DNA of 41,845 nucleotides, taken from contig JAKAIY010000013.1 of assembly GCA_021814145.1 (NCBI GenBank), forward strand, positions 1 to 41,845, given 5' to 3'. The DNA comes from Chloroflexota bacterium. Lineage in GTDB: Bacteria > Chloroflexota > Ktedonobacteria > Ktedonobacterales > JADMIN01. This document shows positions 8,024-10,474 of the stretch, one piece after another (position 1 is the stretch's first letter; each line of letters opens with the position of its first letter). Under the pieces are notes generated by a model. The model did not search any database, had not been told where the DNA came from, and saw only the letters and a list, made by a program, of their open reading frames with translations. The position numbers were made by a program, and so were the translations under genes.

Positions 8024-8392
8024 TCAGATGGCCGCGCCGTCTCTTGGAAAGGAAGCGGCGGCGCGGCGGCGCTCGGCCGCGATCGCGGCGCGCCAGTGCT
8101 GCTCGGCGCGCGTGCGCGCGGCGCTGGCCTGGGCGCGCGCATTCGCCAGCGCGACGCTTTGCTCCTTCGCGATGCGGCCGGTAAGGTAAGCCAGCGCGAA
8201 GTCGCGAGTGAGGTCGTCCGGCACGCTTTCCTCGACCACCGCAACGGCGGCGCGGACGGCGCGCTCAAACGCGGGCAGCACGGCGGGCGCTTCATGAGCG
8301 AGCCCTTCGGCGACCAGGCAATCGCGCAAGGTGGCGCTGGCTTGTTCAGCGAGCCCATGAAAGGGATTCGCGGCGGCTGAAGTGATCGTCAT
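8024..8392 (-). CDS. Hypothetical protein, Ala-rich helical
   Basis: A 122-residue predicted protein not assigned to a family. Residues 1-60 (AANPFHGLAEQASATLRDCLVAEGLAHEAPAVLPAFERAVRAAVAVVEESVP) and the Arg/Ala-rich C-terminal half (ARAQASAARTRAEQHWRAAIAAERRRAAA) look wholly alpha-helical, the latter possibly a coiled coil. No signal peptide or membrane segment is visible. CGGAGACGACACG before the ATG gives a reasonable ribosome site, which favours this strand over the competing plus-strand ORF at 7928-8380. It could be a small regulatory or structural protein. Coding status is moderately likely. Confidence 0.5.
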   Translation of the reverse strand: MTITSAAANPFHGLAEQASATLRDCLVAEGLAHEAPAVLPAFERAVRAAVAVVEESVPDDLTRDFALAYLTGRIAKEQSVALANARAQASAARTRAEQHWRAAIAAERRRAAASFPRDGAAI

Positions 8393-8788
8393 CGTGTCGT
8401 CTCCGTATCAGCGGGAATAATGGGTGGTCTATACAGGCCGATGCGCCACTCACGCGGGCCGTCAGGCGCGTTGGTATTCGCCAGTGGAACGGCCACACAC
8501 GCTCAAATGCTTCCGACAGGTTACTTAAAATTAAAAACTAACGTGGGCTCAGGAGAAGCTTCGCGGATGGGTGCGGTAGCCTGATTGCGCTTGGGACATG
8601 TTGCGGCTCTCCGGGACAGATAATCAGGGAGCGTCTGCCTCTGCGGGAGCTTTCCAGCGCAATAAGCCTGGCTTCAAGGCTGGCTGTCGTGTCACGCCAA
8701 AGCCGCTCGCCCACGCGCGCGCCGCCAGTCTGCCCGGGGCATCGCTGGCAGACGCGCGCATGAGGAGCGGGGCCGGATGGTTTGTCCG
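8393..8788. other. Gene-free stretch with an AT-rich island
   Basis: No convincing gene lies in this 396-bp gap. An AT-rich patch at 8519-8543 (GGTTACTTAAAATTAAAAACTAAC) stands out sharply from the GC-rich surroundings and is loosely palindromic (GTTA...TAAC). GTCTGCC (8728-8734) and GGCAGAC (8747-8753) form a 7-bp inverted repeat with a 12-base loop near the end of the Hfq-like gene and may be its terminator. The plus-strand ORF 8598-8825 has no family features. Confidence 0.4.
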
Positions 8789-9001
8789 CTACGCCTCGCT
8801 TATGCTCACGACGGCGTGCTTGTAAATGAGCACGAGGCGCCCGTTATCAGGCCGGATGAGCAGGCTATCATCATAGACCTCCTCGAGAGTCCCCGCATAC
8901 CGTTCAGGCTGAAGCGGGGGCTGTGGAGCGGATGTCTCGATAATTACCCGCTTGCCGAGCGACTCCTCCAGAAAGTCGAACTTGATTCTCTCTTCCTCCA
9001 T
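8789..9001 (-). CDS. Small Hfq/Sm-like protein
   Basis: A 70-residue protein from ATG 9001 with an excellent ribosome site (GGGAGG, 6 bases upstream). Residues 15-67 follow the Sm fold pattern: LGKRVIIET, then YAGTLEEVYDDSLLIRPDNGRLVLI, then YKHAVVSI (60-67). YKHAVVSI closely matches the Hfq Sm2 signature YKHAISTV, whose His-57 region lines the RNA-binding pore. Compared with E. coli Hfq the N-terminal helix differs, a Pro-rich loop (APQPPLQPE) is inserted between strands 1 and 2, and the C-terminal tail is absent. If it forms a ring it would be a post-transcriptional RNA chaperone. It could instead be another LSm-like small protein. It stands alone between an MFS gene and a hypothetical gene. 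Confidence 0.7.
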   Translation of the reverse strand: MEEERIKFDFLEESLGKRVIIETSAPQPPLQPERYAGTLEEVYDDSLLIRPDNGRLVLIYKHAVVSISEA

Positions 9002-9088
9002 GATGTGCCTCCCTTGCGTCTGGCAAACGCAGCATTCAGGCGTCTACGCGCGCTGGCCGAAAAGCCGCTTCCATAAGGCTTTTCTCAA

Positions 9089-10474
9089 TCAGGGCGCGCC
9101 ACGCTTTCTCGTCACCTGCCCGTACGGATCACTGGCGTCACGATGCGACGATGGCGCGCCAAGAGCGCGCCAGGCGTAGGCGCCACCCGCGATCGCGAGC
9201 AGCCCGGTCCCGGTAAAGACCGCATTCACCGGCCCGAAGCGAATGCCCAGAATCGTGGCGTGGAAGCCAGCCAGCACGGTGCTGACGAGCGAGCCAGCCA
9301 GCGCGACCGAGACGAACGCCGCGAGCCGCCCTACCGGGTTGACTACCGCCGTTACTCGTCCGACGAACTGGCGATCGGTCGCATCTATCGCCAGCGGACC
9401 AGCCGCGACCAGGATCGCGGTCGCCGCGACACCGAAGAAGAACGCCGCTACCAGCGCCAGCGGGTAGCTTGTCAGGTGCGACATGACGATGACGAAGGCG
9501 CCCGAGGTGACCAGCGCGATCCACAAAATGCGCTCGAGGCCGGCGCGTTTGCCCATGAAGGTCACGAGCAGACCGCCAAAAATCGCTCCGACGCCGAAGA
9601 CCGCGCCAAACCAGCCGTACATGCTGGGAGGCGCGTGGAGGTTTTCAGTGATGAAAAAATAGCCGAGGGCCTGTAAGGCCCCAAAGCCGAGCCAGGTCAG
9701 CGTCTCAGCGATGAGGATTGTTCGCAGCGTGGCATGCCCAAGCACGTAGCCGATTCCGTCAAGGAACTCATGCGTGAAATGGCCAGTCTCACCGGGCTTG
9801 AGACTGCGCGCCGCGGTCGGCGCGTGGACGGCGGCGGACGCGGCGAATGCGACGATGAACGAGAGCGCATTGAGCGCTATCGCCCAGGAGATGCCCGCGC
9901 CAAAGACCAGCGCCGCCGCGACTGGCGGTCCGATGACCACGGCCAGTCCCTGGATCGCCTGCGTCATCTCCTGCGCCTGATCTTCCTTGTCGCTGGGCGC
10001 GATGTCCTTGATCAACGCGAGCTGGGCGGGGATAAAAAACTGCGAACAGATCGTGATGAGGGCGACATCGGCATAGATGACGCCCAGCGCCCAGAATGCC
10101 GTCAGGCGCGAGCTCCCCACCAGCGGCAGCGACAGGCCGACCAGCGGCGGAACGAGCAGAATGGCGAAGAGCGCCTGGAGCGCCGTCGCGACCAGCATCG
10201 TACGGCGCTTGTCCCAGCGGTCCACGAAGACGCCCGCGATCGGGCCGGCGACAATCTGCGGCAGCGCCGCCGCGACGATGACGCCACTAATCGCCAGCGG
10301 CGCCCATGACTGGTTGTACGCCAGGGTCGTGGCGACCCAGAGAATGAGGGCGGTGTCCCAGGCGTAATCGCCAACGCTGGAGATAGCCTGCCCCCACCAG
10401 ACCAGCCCGAAATCGCGATTGATAAAGACCGTCCGCGTGAGACGGGCAAGCCGCAGGCGCAGAACACGCTCCAT
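9089..10474 (-). CDS. MFS transporter (DHA3-type drug efflux-like)
   Basis: A protein of about 461 residues from ATG 10474, where family similarity begins (RDFGLVWWGQAISSVGDYAWDTAL). It has twelve predicted membrane helices and the motif GVFVDRWDKRRTMLVAT between TM2 and TM3. This is the arrangement of MFS_3/enterobactin- or macrolide-exporter proteins, so proton-driven export of a small hydrophobic compound is likely. The ORF track begins at 10762, but those 96 extra residues are Pro/Arg/Ala-rich without family character. No strong ribosome site marks 10474, while a GGAGAGGAG lies upstream of 10762, so the start remains uncertain. Confidence 0.82.
   Translation of the reverse strand: MERVLRLRLARLTRTVFINRDFGLVWWGQAISSVGDYAWDTALILWVATTLAYNQSWAPLAISGVIVAAALPQIVAGPIAGVFVDRWDKRRTMLVATALQALFAILLVPPLVGLSLPLVGSSRLTAFWALGVIYADVALITICSQFFIPAQLALIKDIAPSDKEDQAQEMTQAIQGLAVVIGPPVAAALVFGAGISWAIALNALSFIVAFAASAAVHAPTAARSLKPGETGHFTHEFLDGIGYVLGHATLRTILIAETLTWLGFGALQALGYFFITENLHAPPSMYGWFGAVFGVGAIFGGLLVTFMGKRAGLERILWIALVTSGAFVIVMSHLTSYPLALVAAFFFGVAATAILVAAGPLAIDATDRQFVGRVTAVVNPVGRLAAFVSVALAGSLVSTVLAGFHATILGIRFGPVNAVFTGTGLLAIAGGAYAWRALGAPSSHRDASDPYGQVTRKRGAP

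Follow-up and report, generated by a model that had tools for sequence, protein, structure and literature searches.

The C-terminal domain of RimP and Hfq are both Sm-like barrels, and divergent Hfq homologues of cyanobacteria are thought to work by binding a protein partner. The proximal uridine pocket of Escherichia coli Hfq is built from Gln8, Phe42, Lys56 and His57 (PMC5379935), and the divergent cyanobacterial homologues keep the Sm fold and are required for motility (PMC6202907). Borrelia BB0268, once annotated as Hfq, is instead the two-transmembrane flagellar protein FlgV (PMC11607428).

Within the window, i.e., the whole stretch of 41,845 nucleotides analysed here, the minus strand encodes a 70-aa protein that, judged from its sequence, is best regarded as a rare, divergent, lineage-restricted Sm-like protein, which probably folds like Hfq and possibly binds RNA, and which is not demonstrable as Hfq.

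The gene and its surroundings

The gene and the features next to it are as follows.

8789..9001, minus strand: gene for the 70-aa putative Sm-like (Hfq-resembling) protein (ORF, codon preference, Pfam matches to DUF6897 at E = 0.0049 and Hfq at E = 0.028)
9008..9015, minus strand: Shine-Dalgarno-like AAGGGAGG, GGAGG 6 nt before the ATG (sequence)
9089..10474, minus strand: MFS transporter gene directly upstream, 87-nt gap (context only; no small gene beside the G001 orthologue)
8024..8392, minus strand: 122-aa gene downstream (context only; its G002 homologue lies on a different contig from the small-gene homologue)

The ORF is a genuine gene on the grounds of its codon usage and of the GGAGG ahead of its ATG, and its translation is MEEERIKFDFLEESLGKRVIIETSAPQPPLQPERYAGTLEEVYDDSLLIRPDNGRLVLIYKHAVVSISEA (70 residues). 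Under a codon model trained on the other genes of the window it reached 0.315 bits per codon, true gene chunks averaging 0.37, and it stands above 99.35% of the off-frame and antisense chunks taken from known genes, with only 0.65% outscoring it. The overlapping plus-strand ORF (8777-9076) was rejected as a gene, its codon score being near zero (0.04) and no family matching it. The sequence leading to the start reads AAGGGAGG-CACATC-ATG, and its GGAGG ranks with the window's better ribosome sites. The preliminary description took this strong site to suggest that the protein is made in quantity, which does not follow: the Shine-Dalgarno match is longer in two of the other genes sampled from the window, which leaves no ground for claiming a special level of expression.

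Synteny around the gene is not conserved. The MFS orthologue in G001, a genome of the same genus, shows 79% identity, with the small gene missing and the matching DNA running out close to where the MFS gene ends; an operon with the transporter was therefore rejected, as other DNA lies directly downstream of that orthologue. Of 11 family genomes, G002 alone has a homologue (63%) of the 122-aa coding ORF on the other side, which shows a weak KfrA_N match below cut-off.

Resemblance to Hfq and a homologue in the same genus

Four segments of the protein bear on its family assignment.

8954..8980, minus strand: residues 8-16, predicted N-terminal helix in the place of the Hfq helix (low-confidence AF2 model, H9-15, and profile alignment with Hfq)
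8900..8932, minus strand: residues 24-34, SAPQPPLQPER, Pro-rich loop exceeding that of Hfq by about 4 residues (alignments)
8852..8899, minus strand: residues 35-50, Sm1-like segment YAGTLEEVYDDSLLIR (alignment with the homologue and Hfq)
8801..8824, minus strand: residues 60-67, YKHAVVSI, Sm2-like segment (sequence; Hfq HMM match at residues 43-68)

What had been read from the letters was borne out by the translation, in which we found the 70-residue product with YKHAVVSI at residues 60-67, the Pro-rich insertion (APQPPLQP, residues 25-32) and no C-terminal tail. The Sm1-like pattern is also present, as Y-A-G-T-L-E-E-V-Y-D-D, with the Asp one residue farther from the Gly than in Hfq. The Sm2 motif YKHA[IV] occurs as YKHAV at residues 60-64, within a LIYKHA shared with Bacillus subtilis Hfq. 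Only Lys56 and His57 of the uridine-pocket set have counterparts in the alignment, the equivalents of Gln8 and Phe42 being absent. A GKR at residues 16-18 was compared with the rim arginine patch of Hfq (RRER). The protein is acidic (pI 4.6, charge -6). Staphylococcus aureus Hfq, at pI 4.8, is just as acidic and yet counts as an Hfq, so that charge alone decides nothing about Hfq status.

Searches of the family libraries returned few and weak matches. The sole Pfam matches were DUF6897 (PF21838; E 0.0049, 17 bits where the cut-off is 23.9) and Hfq (PF17209; E 0.028, 14.4 bits against 27), and the sole NCBIfam match was Hfq TIGR02383 (E 0.072, 13 bits against 61.7). RimP was matched in neither library, the protein being a single 70-aa domain and not of the two-domain RimP architecture, and a PDB sequence search gave no match. 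The HMM comparison proposed in the preliminary description thus upheld an Hfq-like signal (14.4 bits) and not membership of the Hfq family, which is unsupported in view of scores below both cut-offs, of the better (and also sub-cut-off) score of DUF6897 and of a homologue lacking the Sm2 Lys. The RNA chaperone first proposed likewise finds no support in a protein of pI 4.6 without equivalents of Gln8 and Phe42.

The resemblance to Hfq, as far as sequence comparison reaches, is beyond chance but weak. A small Hfq HMM, built from the B. subtilis, S. aureus and E. coli proteins (the first verified against PDB 3ahu), scored the protein at 10.3 bits, a value reached by 0 of 20,000 shuffles of its own composition (maximum 9.3 bits among the 15,575 reported). 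When the protein and its homologue were aligned by hhalign to a set of five Hfq sequences, three classical and two divergent ones from this phylum, the probability was 90% (P = 1.5e-6) over 61 columns, from the helix to the last strand; the protein alone against the three classical Hfq gave 54% over 31 columns (residues 35-66). The Sm-like character first proposed thus agrees with both the weak HMM matches and the profile-profile alignment.

Two further genomes represent the genus, and one of them, G002, carries the homologue, a 64-aa ORF (codon score 0.433) that is 37% identical to the 70-aa protein. Their Smith-Waterman score of 70 lies 12 SD above the shuffle mean (21.4, SD 4.0), with 0 of 20,000 shuffles as high, and the residues in common read KRV..ET..P...Y.GT...V.DD...P...RL...HA..S.S.A, including the KR pair near the helix. 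As the genome search of the order gave this homologue an E of only 0.06, the grounds for homology of the pair are the pairwise score, the agreement of the two proteins at start and end, and codon usage. The homologue is likewise acidic (pI 4.8), but reads LIAFHAI at the Sm2 place, without YK and hence without the pore Lys, so that His57 is the only residue of the uridine pocket with a counterpart. Its own weak matches are to the RimP C-terminal SH3 domain (PF17384; E 0.012, 16.2 bits against 26.3), RimP (E 0.01, 16 against 162) and Hfq (E 0.044), and the RimP-C and Hfq models match it in the same region. The gene adjoining it on the opposite strand (L028:2341-3558) has a weak, sub-cut-off match to a caudovirus prohead protease (E 0.012), which hints at a phage-related neighbourhood.

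Run on this one sequence, AlphaFold did not reach a confident fold (pLDDT 48.6); the low-confidence model runs helix, strand, then three strands, the order being as in Hfq, and Foldseek with this model returned meaningless matches, none of them to an Sm protein of value.

Occurrence, and Hfq-like proteins elsewhere in the phylum

The gene comes and goes between species, unlike that of a core chaperone, as seen with assemblies of G001 and G002 that are 84% and 79% complete, and the protein or its homologue is found in one or two species only. No further member appeared in 150 relatives, in the 47 genomes of the order or, by profile, in 400 genomes of the phylum, where the search returned only the gene itself, the G002 homologue and one chance match in a 951-aa frame. 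A mixed Hfq/Sm profile run over the 47 genomes found nothing beyond chance, and tblastn and pattern searches for relatives matched nothing in genome contigs, viral contigs or phages. The single plasmid match was a partial chance match in an acyl-CoA dehydrogenase. A match in G010 (E 0.003), with similar ones in G001, G002, G004, G005 and G037, was likewise discarded, as it fell each time within one large protein of 651-1326 aa, in the helical-looking DFTHDKLREVAY, and is in every case one chance resemblance to a single conserved gene.

According to the preliminary description, Hfq is not usually described in this lineage, and it is indeed rare in the phylum, since only 5 of 400 genomes pass the PF17209 cut-off, compared with 5 of 14 well-known genomes in a control search, including E. 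coli and B. subtilis. Four of the five are HTH-Hfq fusions, and no member of DUF6897 passed its cut-off in 301 genomes of the phylum. FlgV, present in some Chloroflexi and formerly called Hfq, was set aside as a two-transmembrane protein unrelated to the one described here.

In these four fusions, and in two weaker matches, the Hfq-like domain forms the C-terminus of proteins of about 230-270 aa with an N-terminal Cro/C1-type HTH and a linker. Four genomes, one of them (G361) from another family, carry a two-gene HTH-Sm cassette (L092 in G259, L093 in G231, L095 in G361, L096 in G182): the first gene encodes about 265-275 aa with a Cro/C1-type HTH (weak match), a linker and the Hfq-like C-terminal domain, and the second, directly after it, a product of 137-169 aa ending in an Hfq_1-like domain. 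A gltX-like gene lies about 1 kb downstream of the cassette in G231. The cassette products may be Sm proteins that bind DNA and could assemble into mixed rings, and a small literature search found no description of the pair. The conserved cassette is apparently unrelated to the 70-aa protein and looks the more interesting of the two. In other families of the phylum, L071 (G299) and L094 (G295) encode HTH-linker proteins (228 and about 290 aa) whose C-terminal domain is Hfq-like, with a second Hfq-like gene established at neither locus. Standalone Hfq-like small proteins were found elsewhere in the phylum at L065:1396-1542 (G102) and L004:1471-1716 (G056), one passing the PF17209 cut-off (LVYKHGVAVVS) and the other narrowly missing it (VVYKGALKYML); the two fall far short of the NCBIfam Hfq cut-off.

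Possible roles and comparison with known systems

From the retained Lys56 and His57 equivalents and the conserved KR pair we tentatively favour an acidic Sm-like barrel (Hfq/LSm/RimP-C) that would form rings and serve in an accessory role, possibly binding RNA weakly. Each subunit would be a small acidic single domain with a short N-terminal helix, five strands, a Pro-rich beta1-beta2 loop and no tail, pairing edge to edge with its neighbours through the Sm2-like beta4/beta5 strands to close the ring; K61 and H62 might then bind short single-stranded RNA close to the pore, with K17-R18 holding it at the rim. Such a protein would be an accessory of low RNA affinity, gained and lost between species, and not a core chaperone. 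The main rival to an RNA-binding ring is a protein scaffold, where the same barrel would not act on RNA but serve a protein partner as a small adaptor or oligomeric scaffold. This is rather unlikely: the acidic pI of both members, the loss of the Gln8 and Phe42 equivalents and the unconserved Sm2 Lys are consistent with it, and the motility-linked cyanobacterial homologues offer a precedent (PMC6202907), whereas K61-H62 are kept in the 70-aa protein, both members share the basic KR pair near the helix, S. aureus Hfq matches them in acidity, and neither a partner nor a conserved neighbourhood was seen.

Descent from Hfq may itself be questioned, as the best Pfam match is DUF6897 (17 bits vs. 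14.4 for Hfq), the homologue best matches RimP-C and lacks YK, and the G-x-[LV]-x-x-V-x-D-D spacing is one residue off that of Hfq. A small SH3-like barrel of DUF6897 or RimP-C type, with YKHA acquired by convergence, is nonetheless unlikely in view of the LIYKHA as in B. subtilis Hfq, of all shuffles being beaten against Hfq and of a DUF6897 score below cut-off in a phylum where 301 genomes yielded no member above it. More speculative, and distinctly unlikely on our estimate, would be a family in its own right, made up of rapidly evolving, acidic, small Sm-like proteins and limited to about one genus, whose RNA- or protein-binding rings would do part of the work of Hfq through a different site in a phylum mostly without it. 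An unrelated small protein bearing a YKHA string by chance could be suspected from library-wide E-values of only 0.005-0.07 and from the want of a confident fold; we hold it improbable, as these families are the only library matches, the shuffle tests speak against it and the homologue gives, in the same region, independent matches to the models of RimP-C and Hfq. Very improbable is a bona fide, highly diverged Hfq acting as the sRNA-mRNA chaperone of the cell, despite the Sm2-like motif with its Lys-His, the position of the N-terminal helix and the size of an Hfq core: the protein fails the Pfam and NCBIfam cut-offs (14.4/27 and 13/61.7 bits), its homologue has no pore Lys, and it is missing from nearly all relatives, including G001 where the neighbouring gene is kept, an occurrence ill-suited to a core chaperone.

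If the favoured ring-forming and RNA-binding protein were confirmed, Sm-type proteins missed by standard Hfq models would exist in bacteria lacking Hfq, raising the question of what replaces Hfq in this phylum. The present lesson is that one motif does not suffice to name a protein Hfq, as with Borrelia BB0268, now FlgV (PMC11607428).

Set against described families, the protein has its best Pfam match, over residues 9-60, in DUF6897 (PF21838), a family of unknown function to which it is likened by a sequence score short of the cut-off (17 vs. 23.9 bits). The RimP C-terminal SH3 domain (PF17384) is the best match of the G002 homologue, but leaves the 70-aa protein itself unmatched, and the N-terminal domain of RimP is missing here. 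With the cyanobacterial homologues and Hfq_1 (PF21979, NF047718) the likeness would be that of a sequence-divergent bacterial Sm fold with altered function (PMC6202907); the Hfq_1 models match neither the protein nor its homologue, whereas they do match the HTH-Sm cassettes of the phylum. From Hfq (PF17209, TIGR02383) it departs in the Pro-rich beta1-beta2 loop, the Asp spacing increased by one, the absent Gln8 and Phe42 equivalents, the sub-cut-off scores, its acidity and a homologue without the pore Lys, and it resembles Hfq in core length, in the predicted helix followed by strands, in the Sm2-like LIYKHA, in the Gly of the Sm1 segment and in a profile alignment extending over 61 columns.
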